Shown: positions 41,825-49,973 of the stretch, piece after piece
How positions within the stretch are numbered: position 1 is the first letter of the stretch
How the letters are laid out: each line of letters opens with the position of its first letter
The notes under the pieces: model-generated
Database searches by the model: none
Told to the model about the DNA's origin: nothing
What the model saw: only the letters and a program-made list of their open reading frames with translations
Assembly (NCBI GenBank): GCA_001464795.1
Contig: LNEB01000013.1
Coordinates: 62,001-126,000 of the forward strand
Source of the DNA: Bdellovibrionales bacterium Ga0074139
Lineage (GTDB): Bacteria; Bdellovibrionota; Bdellovibrionia; Bdellovibrionales; Bdellovibrionaceae
Direction of reading: 5' to 3'
DNA: 64,000 nucleotides
Translations under genes and position numbers: made by a program

Positions 41825-43264
41825 ATGGCTATCACATATCGTAAATCATTATTTTTTGGATACCTACTGCTAATTGGCATGATTTTGAGCTTGGTGCTCA
41901 CCGAAATTGCCTACGCCCAAAGTCACTCACAACAGGAAGTGCTCGTTAAAATAGCAGATTCAACAAAAGACATGAAAGCTTTTCGAAATCTGGGAATGAA
42001 AAACATAGGCGGAGGCTGGTACCTCATCAGTCAGCCCCGACAATTATCAAAGCTATCGGAAATTGAAGGAGTTATTACTGTACAGCCTAATTTTCAACTG
42101 GGACTTTTGCATGACTTTCGCATTCAAGATTTAAAAAAACGCGAACAGCTTTTGGCTCAACGGGGATCTAATCGTGGATTGCGGCCTGATAACCCGGCCA
42201 TCCCACCAACTCCCACAACTCAAGCTGGTGCCGATCCACTTTACAATAAACAGTGGGGTATGATTGACAACGGGGTTAAAGAAGCTTGGGCAAAAACTCA
42301 AGGAAATCCTGAAATTGTTGTGGCTGTCCTCGACACGGGAGTTGATTACACTCATGAGGATTTACTAGAGAACTTATGGTGGAACAAAAAGGAAATTCCT
42401 AACAACAAGATCGACGACGACAACAACGGTTATGTGGATGATGTGATCGGCTATGATTTCGTCAGCAACGACTCTCTTCCCTACGACTTGGCTGTGGATA
42501 ACCCTCTGGATTTATTAACTGGGGGAGGTAATCCTGGACATGGAACTCATTGCGCAGGAAATGTGGCAGCCAGAGGTAACAACTCAATTGGAATTTCAGG
42601 CGTCGCTCCCAATGTAAAAATCATGAGCCTCAGATTTATCAGTGAAAAAGGCTCGGGAACGACGGCAGCTGCCATTCAAGCCATCCGCTATGCTGTGGAT
42701 AATGGAGCACAAATTCTTTCTAACTCATGGGGTGGAGAAGGTCAGGACGATCAATCCGAGGAAAATTTAGCACTTAAGGAAGCCATTCAATACGCTCAAG
42801 AAAAAGGGGTTCTTTTTGTGGCAGCCGCAGGCAATGGTCGAAAAGGTCGTGGCTACAATAATGACACAGATTCACGTCCCATTTACCCCGCCAGTTATAA
42901 TTTTGAAAATATCATCACAGTTGCAGCGCTTGATAGTTCCGATAAGCTAGGAGTTTTTTCTAATTTTGGCAGCAAAACAGTGCATATTGGCGCTCCAGGA
43001 GTAAAGGTTTTTTCGACGACTGTTGCGAATAACTATGATGATACGGTGATTGATAAATTTGGCTTTAAAGCGACTTGGGATGGAACTTCCATGGCCACTC
43101 CCCATGTGGCGGGTGCCGCTGCTTTGTATTGGTCAGCCCATCCAAACGCCAATTACAAAGATGTCAAAAATGCCATTTTAAATTCGGCCGTTAAAATTCC
43201 CTCATTAACTGGTAAAGCCGTTACAGAAGGAAAATTAAACGTTAAAGCTTTGATGAATCAGTAA
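41825..43264 (+). CDS. Secreted subtilisin-like serine protease
   Basis: Peptidase family S8; 479 residues. A signal peptide (LLLIGMILSLVLTEIAYA) is followed by an I9-like propeptide (about 35-95) and a linker, then the catalytic domain with D170 (VLDTGVDYTHEDL), H239 (GHGTHCAGNV), oxyanion Asn337 (AAAGN) and S422 (GTSMATPHVAGA). An Asp/Asn-rich loop (IDDDNNGYVDD, about 196-206) may bind calcium. It has no C-terminal extension, so it should be released free into the periplasm or outside. It is a candidate for degrading external protein. The end overlaps the kinase gene by 23 bp on the other strand. Confidence 0.92.
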   Translation: MAITYRKSLFFGYLLLIGMILSLVLTEIAYAQSHSQQEVLVKIADSTKDMKAFRNLGMKNIGGGWYLISQPRQLSKLSEIEGVITVQPNFQLGLLHDFRIQDLKKREQLLAQRGSNRGLRPDNPAIPPTPTTQAGADPLYNKQWGMIDNGVKEAWAKTQGNPEIVVAVLDTGVDYTHEDLLENLWWNKKEIPNNKIDDDNNGYVDDVIGYDFVSNDSLPYDLAVDNPLDLLTGGGNPGHGTHCAGNVAARGNNSIGISGVAPNVKIMSLRFISEKGSGTTAAAIQAIRYAVDNGAQILSNSWGGEGQDDQSEENLALKEAIQYAQEKGVLFVAAAGNGRKGRGYNNDTDSRPIYPASYNFENIITVAALDSSDKLGVFSNFGSKTVHIGAPGVKVFSTTVANNYDDTVIDKFGFKATWDGTSMATPHVAGAAALYWSAHPNANYKDVKNAILNSAVKIPSLTGKAVTEGKLNVKALMNQ

Positions 43265-43997
43265 CAATATAGGGGACCTTGAGCTCAAACAAGGTCCCTG
43301 AATAAGCACTCGAATCTGACTTTTGCTTCGAAAAAACCTGAATCTCAGCCCCGATACTATCAATCAAAAATTTTACGATCGGCAGTCCGTAGCCCGTTCC
43401 TGCTTCATTTTCTGTCCCCAAGCTGGTGGTGGACCCAGAAAAATTAAATAAAGTGGGAACTTTTTCTTTGGGAATACCGACTCCACTGTCAGAAATATAA
43501 ATCATATAAAAATCTAATTTTTTTTGCACACTGATTAATACTTTGCCATCCCGGTAAGAAAATTTAATCGCATTTGTTAAAAGATTGATCAGTATGTGAT
43601 TGGTAAATAAATTCTCGTCTGTAAAGGTTCTATCAAAAGTAGGCCATTCCAAGAAATCAAATTGCACATTTTTAGCTTTTGCCATTGATTCTAGCTGCTG
43701 CAGCGCCGACAAAAAACACTGCTTCAAAGAAATTGGATTCGATAAAATTGGCAACTTTCCAGAGCTCAAACCATGGGCATCCCGTGCTAAACTGAGCATT
43801 GAATTCACTTTTTTTGCTGCGTTCAGAGATCGATCAATGGAATCCATCGATGGGCCAAAGTCATAGTCCTTCAGGGCCATCAGTTCAAATTTAACTTTTT
43901 CCAAATTAAGAGTGATAACTGTCATCGGAGTTGCCAGATCATGACAAAGCACTGACAATAGTTGAGAACTTAAATGAGCTGAATCTTTTTCTTCCAT
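43242..43997 (-). CDS. Sensor-less cytoplasmic histidine kinase
   Basis: A 251-residue kinase with only the catalytic parts: HisKA with H19 in LSVLCHDLATPMTV, N box HILINLLTNAIKFS, G1 ISDSGVGIP and G2 GTGYGLPIV. It has no membrane helix and no PAS or GAF domain, so the signal must come from a partner protein. No response regulator is adjacent. The HisKA motif has Asp instead of Glu after His, as in some families. Confidence 0.85.
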   Translation of the reverse strand: MEEKDSAHLSSQLLSVLCHDLATPMTVITLNLEKVKFELMALKDYDFGPSMDSIDRSLNAAKKVNSMLSLARDAHGLSSGKLPILSNPISLKQCFLSALQQLESMAKAKNVQFDFLEWPTFDRTFTDENLFTNHILINLLTNAIKFSYRDGKVLISVQKKLDFYMIYISDSGVGIPKEKVPTLFNFSGSTTSLGTENEAGTGYGLPIVKFLIDSIGAEIQVFSKQKSDSSAYSGTLFELKVPYIVTDSSKL

Positions 43998-44109: not shown

Positions 44110-44370
44110 ATGGAAATCGGCGAAATTTTAAAAACTTACCGTGCACAAGCTGGAATCACTCAGCAGCAACTGGCTTCTCAATTAGGATACAAAATTCCTC
44201 AATTTATTTCACTACTTGAAAATGGTCACTCAAAAGTGCCTCTCAACATAATTGCAGATCTTGTTGCAATCCTAAAGATCCCCGAGAACGTTATTCTTGA
44301 CTCTCTTGTTCAAGCCTATGAAAAGGAAGCAAGAAGACACCTCAATAGAAAAACAAAAAAAAGAGCTTAA
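44110..44370 (+). CDS. XRE-family helix-turn-helix regulator
   Basis: An 86-residue protein that is little more than a helix-turn-helix domain (IGEILKTYRAQAGITQQQLA, then GYKIPQFISLLENGHSKVPL), with a short basic tail. A clear CAGGAG site precedes the ATG. It is followed after 18 bp by a gene of unknown function, so the two probably form one operon. Toxin-antitoxin pairing cannot be excluded, but the partner does not resemble any known toxin. Confidence 0.85.
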   Translation: MEIGEILKTYRAQAGITQQQLASQLGYKIPQFISLLENGHSKVPLNIIADLVAILKIPENVILDSLVQAYEKEARRHLNRKTKKRA

Positions 44371-44388: not shown

Positions 44389-45072
44389 ATGAGCACTGCT
44401 GAATTAGAAGTAAAAAAACAAAAGTTTTCTGAACTTTTATTTAGCATTCAATCTCAGCTAGAGCCCTTTCTCAACGTGACCGAATCTTTTTCCTCGATTG
44501 AACACAAAGTCAAATCTTCAAAGGCCCTTAACCTTCTGTATCTTCCAAACCTTGAAGTTCTATCCGAGTTTTTAATTGAAAATCAGTTCAAAAGTAAAAA
44601 ATTCTCTGAAATCGATGCTCTTCGGCTTTTCGTAAAAAAAATGGGTTGGCACTTTCCTGAAGGTAGTGATGAATTCCTTTTGGATTCACATATTTTTGAA
44701 ATTTATGATCACCAGGGTTTACAAATTTACAGAAGTTTTAATTTTTTTAAAATTTCGAGCTATTCGATCACTGATATTTTAACCAACCATTGGTGGGATC
44801 TGTATGAAAGAAATCCTTTCATAGCAAAATCCCTTGCTGACCAAGCCATTCGTATTTTTTCAGAACAAATCAAAACTCCAATGCACTTACAACTGCAGCC
44901 TCATGTTGCCACTGAAAAGTGGTCTGAAAGAATCAGTGAAGCGCAAATGTTTCACGATAGCTTCGTTCCCGTTCTTGACGAGCACAACAATACGGTGGCG
45001 ATTTTATCGCCCTACCGTATTTTGAATTTTCAATTTAAGAAGCCGTCTCAATATTTACAGGCTGATGCTTAG
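44389..45072 (+). CDS. Unknown protein cotranscribed with the XRE regulator
   Basis: A 227-residue soluble protein with a helical N-terminal half and a beta-rich middle (LQIYRSFNFFKISSYSITDI), then VPVLDEHNNTVAILSPYRIL near the C-terminus, a shape that resembles a sensory domain of PAS or GAF type, without firm evidence. An AAAGGG site precedes the ATG. The 3' end overlaps that of the diiron gene by 38 bp on the other strand, the longest such overlap here. Confidence 0.55.
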   Translation: MSTAELEVKKQKFSELLFSIQSQLEPFLNVTESFSSIEHKVKSSKALNLLYLPNLEVLSEFLIENQFKSKKFSEIDALRLFVKKMGWHFPEGSDEFLLDSHIFEIYDHQGLQIYRSFNFFKISSYSITDILTNHWWDLYERNPFIAKSLADQAIRIFSEQIKTPMHLQLQPHVATEKWSERISEAQMFHDSFVPVLDEHNNTVAILSPYRILNFQFKKPSQYLQADA

Positions 45073-45673
45073 CTAAAATTTCGCTCAATATTTTTTTATA
45101 CCCCTCGTGAGTAGAAAGAATGGAATTAAGCAAAGTCGTTTTTTGTTTTTGATTCAAGCCCATACAAAATTCAAGTGCTCCACGTACGTGATCAACGTCA
45201 TCCTGAGTATGTGTTTTTAAAAAATGGCAAGCTTTAGGATTATGATATTGACTAACTCGGTTGTAAAGTTCAGGCCCCACTGCAATCGAAAGATTCTCCA
45301 AATAAAGCATGTAACCCATGTGAGCCATGCAACCATTAAGCTTCATATCTTTTTTTTGATTTTCCACGAACTGAGAAGTTGCAAAGCTAGAGGGTGATAG
45401 ATTCTGTCCCAATTTTTTTACGTCATGAATCAGAATTAAATCATGTTTTTGTTCTTCCGGAAGATGTTTAAGAAAAAAATAATGCAAATCATCTTCAACA
45501 GCGACTTCCGCCACACTGGCACCCATGGCTAGTAATCGCGTAGTATGTTTAACAAAGTGGTAAGTTTGCGATAACCACTCGGCATACACGGCTGGATTTT
45601 GCCAATCACATATCATAACTTTTTGGGAAGTTTCCTGAGCACTAACTTGCAATGCGTTTAATATCGAATCCAT
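45035..45673 (-). CDS. Heme-oxygenase-like diiron oxidase (HDO) candidate
   Basis: A 212-residue all-helical protein with the ligand pattern of heme-oxygenase-like diiron enzymes: KHLPEEQKHDLILIHDVKKLG gives E74 and H77, E126 lies in YLENLSIAVG, and H155-x3-D159-x2-H162 is in HTQDDVDHV. The family includes UndA, BesC and related enzymes that oxidise amino acids or fatty acids with O2. Heme degradation is possible but less likely. I start at ATG 45673, preceded by an AAAGG site. The start overlaps the upstream GNAT-like gene by 32 bp, which argues for a shared pathway. Confidence 0.78.
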   Translation of the reverse strand: MDSILNALQVSAQETSQKVMICDWQNPAVYAEWLSQTYHFVKHTTRLLAMGASVAEVAVEDDLHYFFLKHLPEEQKHDLILIHDVKKLGQNLSPSSFATSQFVENQKKDMKLNGCMAHMGYMLYLENLSIAVGPELYNRVSQYHNPKACHFLKTHTQDDVDHVRGALEFCMGLNQKQKTTLLNSILSTHEGYKKILSEILAKHQPVNIETAS

Positions 45674-46328
45674 CGTAGGGGACCTTTCTTGTAAGAGTTG
45701 GGGTGTGACTAAAAAGCTGTAAAGCAAGATCTTTTAAATCAGTTGTTAGAAAATTGAGGTGCAAATTTTCTCTTAAACCACAAACAAGGGAGACCGGTAC
45801 GCCGTGGAGATCAATGTTTTCAATTATTTCACAACCCCCACTTTGCGCCAATTGGGCCACTCCCACATCTGATCTTGCAGGAGCCACCATGGCCTGTATG
45901 TTTTCAAGACTTTGCAAGAACTGGATGCCTTGTGAAAATAAAAGTGGAGCTAAGCCAATGCCTCCTGCACGCTTCCTAAAACTGGGATCCACCATCATGG
46001 ACTCAAAACTCATCACTTGAAAAATTTCATTTTTCTTTAAATATTCAAAAAAAGAGGCGGTAAAATTTTGTTTTAAATATTCATGCTTTAAAATTGAGCA
46101 ACATCTGATATCAAAAACTGAATAAAGATGAACAGCCAAGGGTTTGTCATTTTCATGGATGACACCGAAGTAGTCCTGTCTAAAAAATTCGTTTGCACTT
46201 AAAACATACATAGGATCAATTCGCTTATAAACGTCCACCCAATTTTGATACCAAAATTCAAAAGCGCTATTAAAAAGTTCCATTTGCTCTGGGGATGGAT
46301 TTTTTCCTGGTAAAACTGTAAATTGCAT
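45642..46328 (-). CDS. GNAT-fold acyltransferase-like protein
   Basis: A 228-residue protein whose centre fits the GNAT fold: strand FFRQDYFGVIHENDKPLAVH (about 49-68), then MMVDPSFRKRAGGIGLAPLL (111-130), where RKRAGGIG resembles the acyl-CoA pyrophosphate loop. The N-terminal acidic pattern is somewhat like N-acyl amino acid or autoinducer synthases of the FeeM/LuxI kind. No close family recognised. It is the first gene of a two-gene unit with the diiron candidate. Confidence 0.6.
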   Translation of the reverse strand: MQFTVLPGKNPSPEQMELFNSAFEFWYQNWVDVYKRIDPMYVLSANEFFRQDYFGVIHENDKPLAVHLYSVFDIRCCSILKHEYLKQNFTASFFEYLKKNEIFQVMSFESMMVDPSFRKRAGGIGLAPLLFSQGIQFLQSLENIQAMVAPARSDVGVAQLAQSGGCEIIENIDLHGVPVSLVCGLRENLHLNFLTTDLKDLALQLFSHTPTLTRKVPYDGFDIKRIAS

Positions 46329-46455: not shown

Positions 46456-48213
46456 ATGGCTGGCCACAAATCACTGACACAAAAACCATTTTTGTTTTAT
46501 GTCCTTCATAATAAGCGACCTTTTGTCCTAGGAATTTCATTACTTATCGTAACAAACTTCCTCGATTCGATTTGGCCTTTGTTTATCAAAATGGGTATTG
46601 ATCAAATTGAAAAAGTAGCTCCTCTATCTGAACTCACAAAAACCTGTGTGATGTTTGCAGCTGTCATGATCATGCTTTCCTTGTTTCGTTACGGCTGGCG
46701 AAGACAATGGGGTGAATTTCATACCACGGCTGGTGAACACCTAAGACTCACATTGTTCGACCATATGGTTTACATGAGCTCACGATTTTTTCAAAAAAAT
46801 CCTCCTGGTGAACTCATGAGCCTGATGACCAATGACATTCAATCCTTTAGGCAAGGTATAGGTCCTGGCTTTTTAATTTTAGCTGATGGAATAATTTATA
46901 CCATCATTGTGATCCCCATCATGCTTTCTTTAAACCCTGAATGGACTTGGAAATCTTTGATTTTATTGCCATTTGTACCTCTTCTTATTTGGTACGTAAT
47001 GAATAAAATTGAAAAAAACTACACTAAACAACAAGAAATTTATGCTGATTTAACTCAATTTACAGAAGAACAAATCAGTGGGATTCGAGTTGTCAAAGGC
47101 TTTGGTCTTGAAACCTTACGCCTGAAGCTCTACGAAACTGTCTCAAAACGTTTAGAAGCTCAAAGTTTTAAAACTTCGGTTATCGATGCGATTTTTATGC
47201 CTGTTATGCAGCTCTCAGCGACATTTGGCGGGGTCATTTTACTGTACGTAGCTCAAGATGATGTGCTTTCAGGGACTGCCACCGTCGGAACCTTCATCGC
47301 TTTTCACAAGTACGTGCAAAAAATGGTTTGGCCCATGACAGCTTTAGGACTGGGTCTTTCCTATTGGCAAAAAGGTATGGCCTCTTTTGGAAGAGTCAAA
47401 GAAATTTTAAAAACTCAAACTGACACACCTGATTCGGGCACTTTAGAACTCAAGAGCATAGAATCCATAGAGTTTCGTGATGTTTATTTTAAATATGAAA
47501 CAGCTCCCAACTGGATTTTACAAAATATAAATTTCAAAATTAATAGCGGTGAAAAATGGGCCTTACTTGGTCCCATTGGATCAGGAAAAAGTACATTGAT
47601 CCATTTGATTCTTAGGCTTTATCCACTTGATAGGGGGCAAATTTTAATTAATGGAATCCCTCACTCGAATTACACATTGGATTCTTTAAGAAAAACCATT
47701 CAGCTTGTCCCCCAAGAACCCTTTCTTTTTGGTCGGTCTGTTGCAGATAATGTGTTGATGGGAATTACCCATCCAGATCCTGATATTGAAAACACCGATC
47801 GAAGACTTTGGTCTGAACTTGCTAAATTTCAAATGGATGAAGAAGTTCAAAGATTACCTGAAAAAGAAAAATCAATGTTGGGTGAAAAGGGAGTTAATCT
47901 ATCAGGGGGGCAAAAGCAAAGGCTCACCTTAGCCAGAGCTTATGCACTTAATCCTCAATTGATGATTCTAGACGATGTACTTTCAGCAGTGGACACAGAA
48001 ACTGAATTTAAAATCAGTCAGCAACTTTTTGCTGATCCTGAAAAAACTTACCTTGTGATTGCTCATCGACTATCCACTGTTAAAATAACTCAAAAAGTTA
48101 TTGTTCTTCGAGAGGGACAAATTGAGTTTCAAGGACTTTGGGATGAGGCTCTGAAAAACAGTCCTACTTTACAAGTTTTCCAGAAAATTCAAAATGAAGG
48201 ACTTTCTTCATGA
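46456..48213 (+). CDS. ABC exporter half, degenerate ATP-site subunit
   Basis: A 585-residue half-transporter: six membrane helices (about 1-320) and an ATPase domain with Walker A GPIGSGKST, signature LSGGQKQR and Walker B LMILDDVLSAVD. The catalytic Glu after Walker B is Asp (D507), the mark of the inactive site in heterodimeric exporters such as TM287/288. It overlaps the partner gene by 4 bp. Substrate unknown (drug, lipid or peptide). There is no ribosome site; the promoter suggests a leaderless mRNA. Confidence 0.9.
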   Translation: MAGHKSLTQKPFLFYVLHNKRPFVLGISLLIVTNFLDSIWPLFIKMGIDQIEKVAPLSELTKTCVMFAAVMIMLSLFRYGWRRQWGEFHTTAGEHLRLTLFDHMVYMSSRFFQKNPPGELMSLMTNDIQSFRQGIGPGFLILADGIIYTIIVIPIMLSLNPEWTWKSLILLPFVPLLIWYVMNKIEKNYTKQQEIYADLTQFTEEQISGIRVVKGFGLETLRLKLYETVSKRLEAQSFKTSVIDAIFMPVMQLSATFGGVILLYVAQDDVLSGTATVGTFIAFHKYVQKMVWPMTALGLGLSYWQKGMASFGRVKEILKTQTDTPDSGTLELKSIESIEFRDVYFKYETAPNWILQNINFKINSGEKWALLGPIGSGKSTLIHLILRLYPLDRGQILINGIPHSNYTLDSLRKTIQLVPQEPFLFGRSVADNVLMGITHPDPDIENTDRRLWSELAKFQMDEEVQRLPEKEKSMLGEKGVNLSGGQKQRLTLARAYALNPQLMILDDVLSAVDTETEFKISQQLFADPEKTYLVIAHRLSTVKITQKVIVLREGQIEFQGLWDEALKNSPTLQVFQKIQNEGLSS

Positions 48214-49973
48214 AATTAGATCAAGAGAATCAATCAGGCACATCATCAATCATGGGTTACGGTGATCTTCTGAAGTTCATGAAGCCTTATTTGAAAAGGC
48301 ATTGGGGTGCTGTTGCTGTTTTAGTGGTTCTTGTGCTTGGATTGGCTGCCTTATCAAGGGCTATTCCGTTTCTCATCGGGATGGTAGCCGAAAGAGGGTT
48401 TCAGAATAAGGATGTCGCCTTTTTGGCCACAGCAGCTCTTATTTATTTGGGGATTGAAATCACCCGAACTCTTTTTGAATTCAGTCAGTTCAGTTTGTTT
48501 AGCTTTCTTGGCAACAGAATTATTCATGAAGTGCGTGTGGACTTAGTCAAGCATGTACAAAAAATGCCTCTGGAATTTTTTAATCAAAATTCAACTGGGC
48601 GAATAGTCACTCGTCTAACAAACGACCCCAATACTTTAGCAGAACTTTTTACTGATGGTGTTGTAACAGCCTTTGTTCAAACAGTTATCCTTGCTTCCAT
48701 ATTAATTTCACTGCTTTTCATATCTGTTAAACTCACTTTACTCAGTCTTTTGTTAGTACCACTATTTACTTATCTGGCTTACTGGTTAACTGAAAAAATA
48801 AAATTAATTTTAGTGGATCAAAAGAAAAAATTAGCCGAGATTAACGGATTCTTAGCAGAAAATTTCAACGGCATGAAGATTGTTCAAATTCTGAATCAGC
48901 AAAAAAAATCGATTCATCAGATGAAAAATCTTTCCAATGACTATTGGAATCTCAATATGAAATCTGTAAAAGCTTATGCACTGATGCAGCCTTCGATGAA
49001 TCTTCTGAATGCCTCTGTGGTGATCAGTGCTCTTTACTTGGCCGGTGGAGCGGCCATCAGGGGAGAAATAGCATTAGCTGCTTTAATCGCTTTTGTACTT
49101 AATTCTCAAGACATCATTCATCCCATTCGTGAAATCTTGGAAAAGTATCAACAGTTTCAAAACTCATTAACCAGTGCTGATCGGTTGAAAACTTTATTTT
49201 CGCATCCTCAAGAAAATTTTGATGAAACGCTGGCTGTAGAATCTAAATTCAAAGGAAAAATTGAATTCAAAGATGTCACTTTTCGTTACCAAAAGCATTT
49301 ACCCAAAGTCCTTGAAGATGTTTCGCTTACTGTTCAGCCCGGACAAAGCTTGGCGCTAACAGGACGAACAGGTTCAGGAAAAACCACTTTTGCTTCACTT
49401 CTATTAAGACTCTATGAAATCAATGAAGGTGAAATTTTAATTGATGGAAAGAATTTATTACAAATTTCTCCTTTGGATTTAAGAAGACGCTTTGCTTTGA
49501 TTCAACAAGACCCCTACTTATTTAAAGGCAGTCTGAAAGAAAATATTGTATTAGGTGACCCAACCATCACAGATCATCATCTTAATCATGCCTTTCAGTT
49601 GGTGGGTTTTAAAGACTATCTCAGCCGAACCGGCCGAGATTTGGATTTTAAAGTCTTGGAAAAAGGTAGCAATCTTTCCCTAGGCGAAAGACAACTGATT
49701 GCATTTCTAAGAGTTTTAAGTCGGGATCCTGATGTTGTCATACTGGATGAAGCCACTGCCAACGTGGACAGCGAAACAGAAAGTCTTATTCAAAAAGCAA
49801 CTCTCGAAATCATGAAAAATAAAACGTGCATCATTATTGCTCACCGCCTTAGCACCATCGAAAATTGTGATCACATGATTGTGTTAAGCCGTGGGAAAAT
49901 AATTAAACAGGGGCCACCTCGAGAGCTTCTTAAGCAATCCGAAGTTAAACAAGAGCTCGAGACAGTTCACTAG
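48210..49973 (+). CDS. ABC exporter half, active-site subunit
   Basis: A 587-residue partner of the preceding gene: membrane domain then ATPase with Walker A GRTGSGKTT and Walker B VVILDEATANVD with the catalytic Glu (E514). Its signature is LSLGE (489-493), altered from LSGGQ, as expected for the subunit that completes the degenerate site. The two together form an MdlAB or TM287/288-like heterodimer. Its 3' end overlaps the VWA lipoprotein gene by 4 bp on the other strand. Confidence 0.9.
   Translation: MKLDQENQSGTSSIMGYGDLLKFMKPYLKRHWGAVAVLVVLVLGLAALSRAIPFLIGMVAERGFQNKDVAFLATAALIYLGIEITRTLFEFSQFSLFSFLGNRIIHEVRVDLVKHVQKMPLEFFNQNSTGRIVTRLTNDPNTLAELFTDGVVTAFVQTVILASILISLLFISVKLTLLSLLLVPLFTYLAYWLTEKIKLILVDQKKKLAEINGFLAENFNGMKIVQILNQQKKSIHQMKNLSNDYWNLNMKSVKAYALMQPSMNLLNASVVISALYLAGGAAIRGEIALAALIAFVLNSQDIIHPIREILEKYQQFQNSLTSADRLKTLFSHPQENFDETLAVESKFKGKIEFKDVTFRYQKHLPKVLEDVSLTVQPGQSLALTGRTGSGKTTFASLLLRLYEINEGEILIDGKNLLQISPLDLRRRFALIQQDPYLFKGSLKENIVLGDPTITDHHLNHAFQLVGFKDYLSRTGRDLDFKVLEKGSNLSLGERQLIAFLRVLSRDPDVVILDEATANVDSETESLIQKATLEIMKNKTCIIIAHRLSTIENCDHMIVLSRGKIIKQGPPRELLKQSEVKQELETVH

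Follow-up and report, generated by a model that had tools for sequence, protein, structure and literature searches.

A GNAT-fold acyltransferase and a heme-oxygenase-like diiron oxidase (HDO) are encoded side by side in the window, the whole stretch of 64,000 nucleotides of Bdellovibrionales bacterium Ga0074139 that was analysed. Together they probably provide the catalytic core of a small-molecule module that is conserved in the Bdellovibrionota, with a PAS-domain protein and a small XRE-type regulator in a sensing or regulatory role. HDOs, GNATs and PAS sensors are each known kinds of protein; the novelty lies in how they are combined, in the GNAT family and in the exchange of the oxidative partner. 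In the literature searched, including that on HDOs with quorum sensing or Bdellovibrio, we found no description of a GNAT-HDO pair or module, and the same holds for native acyl-type signalling in the Bdellovibrionota. Since the GNAT family lacks a useful Pfam or NCBIfam match, cluster finding based on profiles would probably miss it.

The locus and its two enzymes

The two enzymes are encoded on the minus strand, the GNAT followed by the HDO, and the XRE and PAS genes converge on them from the plus strand (Table 1). The sequence-only reading had described an overlapping pair of genes opposed by an XRE regulator and a protein of no recognised type, and the coordinates bear this out. The overlap of the GNAT and HDO genes suggests that they are co-transcribed, and their order and tight spacing are repeated at most homologous loci. 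We place the start of the HDO at the ATG at 45673, while the mechanical open reading frame reaches a TTG at 45727. At its other end the HDO gene is overlapped tail to tail by the final 38 bp of the PAS gene (45035-45072). No operator common to both intergenic regions was found, the best score being equalled in 39% of shuffles, and promoter matches were no better than the chance level.

Table 1. Features of the module in the window
Feature	Position	Strand	Description
GNAT-fold acyltransferase gene	45642-46328	-	228 aa; LuxI/FeeM-like fold; family without description
HDO (heme-oxygenase-like diiron oxidase) gene	45035-45673	-	212 aa; PF14518 superfamily
Overlap of GNAT 3' end and HDO 5' end	45642-45673	-	32 bp
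PAS-domain protein gene, putative sensor	44389-45072	+	227 aa; N-terminal helical part and C-terminal PAS; convergent with HDO
Small XRE-type (HTH_3) regulator gene	44110-44370	+	86 aa; upstream of the PAS gene and co-oriented

Two further features flank the module. A short histidine kinase (HisKA/HATPase, 251 aa; 43242-43997, minus strand) without an evident sensor domain adjoins the XRE gene, and two ABC exporter half-transporters, which probably form a heterodimer, are encoded divergently from the GNAT (46456-49973, plus strand). The transporter could export the product of the module; it was rejected as a member, being not conserved as a neighbour at other loci.

The HDO carries the six-ligand pattern of three histidines and three glutamates or aspartates in the order found in HDOs. 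The ligands named in the sequence-only reading, E74, H77, E126, H155, D159 and H162, form a full set. They do not vary in any of the 38 aligned homologues, nor do Y30, D84 and G120, although the identity of these homologues to the window protein is just 22-33%. A single-sequence search found homologues in 45 of 60 relatives. The alignment profile matches the HDO-fold structure 3dde (E 3.9e-20) and the mangotoxin acetylenase MboA (E 7.7e-8), and all six ligands align with those of both. PF14518 is matched at E 0.01 or better by 37 of the 38 members, the window protein scoring 28.7 against a cut-off of 28.9. In the crystal structure of MboA the ligands are Glu86, His89, Glu143, His172, Asp176 and His181, with Asp90 as an alternative ligand (PMC13185094). 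At the position matching Asp90, which immediately follows the second ligand, 36 of the 38 sequences have an Asp or Glu. Given the invariant ligands and the profile matches with MboA and 3dde, the assignment as a diiron oxidase is strong, and catalysis of this type is predicted from the sequence.

The acyltransferase is recognised by its fold. An AlphaFold2 model made with 28 sequences has a pLDDT of 90.8 and the complete GNAT topology, confirming the GNAT-like core that had been seen in the sequence. In a comparison with the PDB, 863 chains reach Z 8 or more, the top rows being all of GNAT fold. The best matches are CoA-dependent AHL synthases, RpaI (Z 16.9 over 194 residues) and BjaI (16.1); MesI (14.4), FeeM (13.9) and LasI (13.3) are also matched, so that the suggested FeeM/LuxI-type resemblance is retained. 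Caution on function is called for by the agmatine/polyamine and arylalkylamine acyltransferases, which come close to the AHL synthases at Z 15.4-15.5 over about 170 residues. By its modelled fold the protein belongs to the GNAT superfamily. At the level of sequence there is little to reveal this. The window GNAT has no Pfam match at or below E 0.1, and together with 35 relatives it has no convincing Pfam family and no PDB sequence match. PF00583 is matched by just two of the 36 members (best E 0.006), but that profile misses many divergent GNAT-fold families, and thus the absent Pfam match does not outweigh the match in fold. The RKRAGGIG loop pointed out earlier is present at residues 118-125, yet only R118 (28 of 36) and G123 (22 of 36) are well conserved in the family.

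The family is not a member of LuxI. In hhalign comparisons LuxI ranked first, with weak similarity (P 9.5e-5, probability 58.7 over 163 columns), the probabilities for OlsB and generic GNATs being 21 and 24. The profile alignment places the ExDqfD motif of LuxI on a conserved SDxF motif of the window family, but the Glu/Arg positions before motif A of LuxI have no counterpart. No member of the family matches PF00765 (LuxI) at or below E 0.1, nor does any protein of the window's genome, in a search that recovers LuxI in eight of 76 alphaproteobacteria. Since PF00765 is unmatched and the Glu/Arg positions lack an equivalent, we describe the protein as LuxI/FeeM-like in fold.

Linkage of the pair and exchange of the oxidase

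How widely does the pair occur? A survey of 291 Bdellovibrionota genomes gave 130 GNAT matches, 105 of which have an HDO within 2.5 kb, and conversely 101 of the 107 core HDOs have a GNAT as neighbour. Three of the six remaining HDOs start less than 700 bases from a contig end, and one adjoins a weak GNAT match. A SAM-dependent methyltransferase gene directly follows one GNAT-less HDO (L069:6747-7574, plus strand; genome G035). Among the 105 pairs the order is GNAT-HDO on one strand in 89 and HDO-GNAT in 12, while three are divergent and one is convergent. With four relative orientations the linkage is not merely that of one inherited operon, and the varied arrangements argue for selection on proximity. 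The functional link that the sequence-only reading proposed between the two genes is thus upheld by a common adjacency of their homologues. Apart from PAS, XRE and one large mixed cluster, the neighbours of the pair show no widely recurring gene family.

A contig profile search, made with a seven-sequence HDO subset and one peptide pattern, gave at least 31 loci, which is an undercount; the relatives named in it were Bdellovibrio, Bacteriovorax and their kin, and no relatives were found in viral contigs. The pair also occurs, with neither PAS nor XRE gene, in two Methylocystis genomes and in Methylosinus sporium (L084, L085, L092). The three methanotroph GNAT sequences form one clade nested in the Bdellovibrionota tree, which fits horizontal transfer and probably reflects it. 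A wide distribution of the GNAT family in the Pseudomonadota was rejected; it was present in one of 398 sampled genomes, that one being the chosen centre of the sample. In the family of this centre it was found in one of 119 genomes and was otherwise absent. Within the window's own family a solitary GNAT is found at seven loci that form one group on the tree. In Bdellovibrio-type genomes a second GNAT of the same family lacks an oxidase or PAS partner (L124-L130); at L124 and L125 its neighbours are conserved genes for peptidases and glutathione-transferase-like proteins.

The HDO is an exchangeable part of the module, a property absent from the earlier account of the locus. Of the 25 GNATs that lack an HDO, 21 were examined, at 20 loci. 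A desaturase-like membrane enzyme of PF00487 lies near ten of these GNATs, one locus being a tandem duplication, and a flavin oxidase of PF01565, whose relatives include 4-cresol dehydrogenase and vanillyl-alcohol oxidase, is present at two HDO-less loci and also at L040. Usually a desaturase-like enzyme or flavoenzyme replaces the HDO. At a third HDO-less locus, L120 (4565-6877, minus strand), the GNAT is fused to a vanillyl-alcohol-oxidase-type flavin oxidase in one reading frame of 770 aa, a natural fusion predicted to link the two activities. A B12-binding-type radical SAM protein (L112:7223-8893, plus strand) is encoded close to a GNAT that has PAS and XRE genes but no HDO, and is a possible further type of partner. 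The genome of a congener of the window organism (G002) has the desaturase version (L117), and in genome G667 a unit of PAS, desaturase-like enzyme, GNAT and XRE is duplicated in tandem (L118:5746-9540).

The exchange has occurred repeatedly. On a tree of 81 GNAT sequences the presence of the HDO changes 16 times, at least ten of the changes being forced by well-supported (starred) branches, though this is a quick tree in which many tip branches are long. Pairs that differ in partner are L073 (HDO) with L117 (desaturase), and L061 (HDO) with L114 (desaturase). Strict mutual exclusion was rejected; six loci of the tree carry both HDO and desaturase, and thus the enzymes are either alternatives or additions.

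The partners also bear on what is oxidised. Where the desaturase-like enzyme adjoins an HDO, its best score is with GntB, an L-Arg hydroxylase, above any desaturase model but far below the GntB cut-off. The flavin oxidase is of a phenol-oxidising type, and MboA modifies a Leu-Ala-Arg peptide at the C-terminal residue (PMC13185094). By analogy these three points lean towards oxidation by the HDO of an amino-acid-derived part, with the acyl chain as the alternative.

The PAS protein and its XRE partner

The protein of no recognised type is a PAS protein. Its model (pLDDT 91.2) has a PAS fold over residues 100-214 and a helical N-terminal part. Residues 100-214 match PAS/LOV chains with Z up to 9.6, and the fatty-acid-bound PAS domain of the quorum-sensing receptor RpfR matches with Z 8.5; the best Foldseek match is the redox-sensing FAD PAS domain of NifL. 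The window protein has no Pfam match, and PAS_9 is found in two of 34 members. The XRE regulator scores 31.3 bits on HTH_3 against a cut-off of 23.

Among loci with at least 2.5 kb of flank, a PAS gene is found no more than 3 kb from the GNAT at 38 of 48 HDO loci, all eight desaturase-only loci and three of four flavin-oxidase loci, and a member of the XRE family at 25 of 48 HDO loci. Both genes are missing at ten of the 48 HDO loci, those of the methanotrophs included. Across 60 relatives the GNAT and PAS proteins co-occur (43/2 against 4/11; Fisher p 2.7e-7, not corrected for phylogeny). Thus the PAS protein stays beside the GNAT even where there is no HDO, in keeping with the earlier suggestion that the opposing genes belong to the system. 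Three Bdellovibrio-type genomes (G007, G033, G036) have six PAS paralogues each, most of them far from any GNAT, an arrangement that recalls receptor solos.

Proposed chemistry, alternatives and known systems

From these data we infer a substrate, an order of steps and a role in signalling or sensing. With acyl-CoA or acyl-ACP as donor, the GNAT would acylate an amine, which is probably an amino acid or derived from one. Using O2 and its diiron site, the HDO would then hydroxylate or desaturate the amino-acid-derived part or the acyl chain, and more generally an exchangeable oxidase would finish the N-acyl compound made by the GNAT. The PAS protein and the small XRE regulator would sense the product or its metabolic state and adjust expression, and the product may carry a signal between cells. 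Function does not follow from a shared fold, the targets of GNATs are diverse, and PAS domains as a class respond to a wide range of ligands or redox states. We are nevertheless highly confident that the GNAT and HDO act in the same pathway. It is likely that the GNAT is an N-acyltransferase of small molecules, and we hold it equally likely that the HDO acts on the substrate or product of the GNAT. Regulation of the pathway by the PAS/XRE pair is probable, if with less assurance, while a role of the product as a cell-cell signal is an appreciable possibility that falls short of probable.

The pathway might instead make a membrane lipid, the HDO or desaturase-like enzyme modifying the acyl chain before or after the action of the GNAT to give an oxidised N-acyl lipid that has no part in signalling. 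The alternative partner does belong to the fatty acid desaturases of PF00487, and the FeeM-, MesI- and LasI-type folds that resemble the GNAT take medium to long chain acyl donors. However, the preference of the desaturase-like partner for an arginine hydroxylase model, the phenol-oxidising type of the flavin oxidase and a linked PAS/XRE pair suggestive of a sensed product all speak against a lipid, which we consider unlikely. More improbable is a hydroxamate or metallophore pathway, in which the HDO would N-oxygenate an amine and the GNAT acylate the N-hydroxy amine, as in siderophore biosynthesis. Foldseek ranks the desferrioxamine acetyltransferase DfoC second, with NcdE and SidF among the matches; some HDOs perform O-atom transfer (PMC13185094), and a diiron enzyme has been proposed to N-oxygenate a lipo-amino acid amide in lipothrenin biosynthesis (PMC10616846). 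Yet the characterised relatives of the desaturase-like and vanillyl-alcohol-oxidase-type replacements carry out C-H oxidation, not N-oxygenation, and the scarcity of widely recurring neighbours also counts against such a pathway.

A GNAT that served to regulate the oxygenase or the PAS protein by acetylating it, with no acylated small molecule involved, would account for a generic GNAT fold and for the presence of NatC-type and other protein acetyltransferases among the structural matches. But AHL synthases align over a greater length (about 190 residues, against about 145), and interchangeable, unrelated partners fit a common small-molecule substrate better than a common protein target; we think this very improbable. 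A better case, though still an unlikely one, is that the PAS/XRE pair is a frequent neighbour with a redox or oxygen-sensing role of its own, and that the pathway comprises the enzyme pair only. The NifL match, the distant PAS paralogues and the methanotroph loci all agree with that. On the other side, the PAS copy beside the GNAT is the best-scoring copy in each of the three six-paralogue genomes, and the PAS gene is retained at the desaturase-type and most flavin-type loci. We keep to the reading of a small-molecule module with a linked sensor or regulator.

There is research interest in Bdellovibrionota as living antibiotics, and they may produce and detect oxidised acyl signals or metabolites of their own. 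More tentatively, the module could represent a chemical-signalling family of predators, with a non-LuxI synthase of AHL-synthase-like fold making an N-acyl signal, a swapped oxidase giving lineage-specific chemistry, and a PAS receptor with an XRE partner to detect it. If the signalling reading is true, the additional PAS paralogues of Bdellovibrio would be counterparts of LuxR solos. A compact conserved module with an AHL-synthase-like fold, a swapped finishing enzyme and a candidate receptor is directly testable. The partner swapping is in effect a natural experiment; the products of the HDO, desaturase and flavin-oxidase versions would reveal the chemistry of a little-known HDO clade.

MboA and other HDOs (UndA, BesC, SznF) have the same six ligands in the same order as the window HDO. 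MboA, however, acts together with ATP-grasp ligases and with MboB as its redox partner, and no such genes recur at window-type loci; there the partner is a GNAT, an association for which no description was found in the literature searched. The N-acyl amino acid synthase FeeM shares the GNAT fold, but it scores below the AHL synthases and has no sequence match to the window GNAT, and we know of no pairing of FeeM with an HDO or with PAS/XRE proteins. The LuxI-type AHL synthases (RpaI, BjaI, MesI, LasI) match the GNAT over the whole chain and likewise have a linked sensor or regulator, putative in our case, yet sequence identity is about 10%, and the putative sensor here is a PAS protein with an XRE regulator, unlike that of LuxI systems. 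A precedent is the three-gene R1-I1-crotonase quorum-sensing circuit of Mesorhizobium, where the signal depends on a crotonase-like gene next to an AHL synthase (PMC10470506). It too combines an acyl-CoA-type synthase, a linked tailoring enzyme and a receptor gene, the corresponding roles in the window being predicted. The two differ in synthase family, tailoring enzymes and receptor fold, and in the module described here the tailoring enzyme has been exchanged many times.
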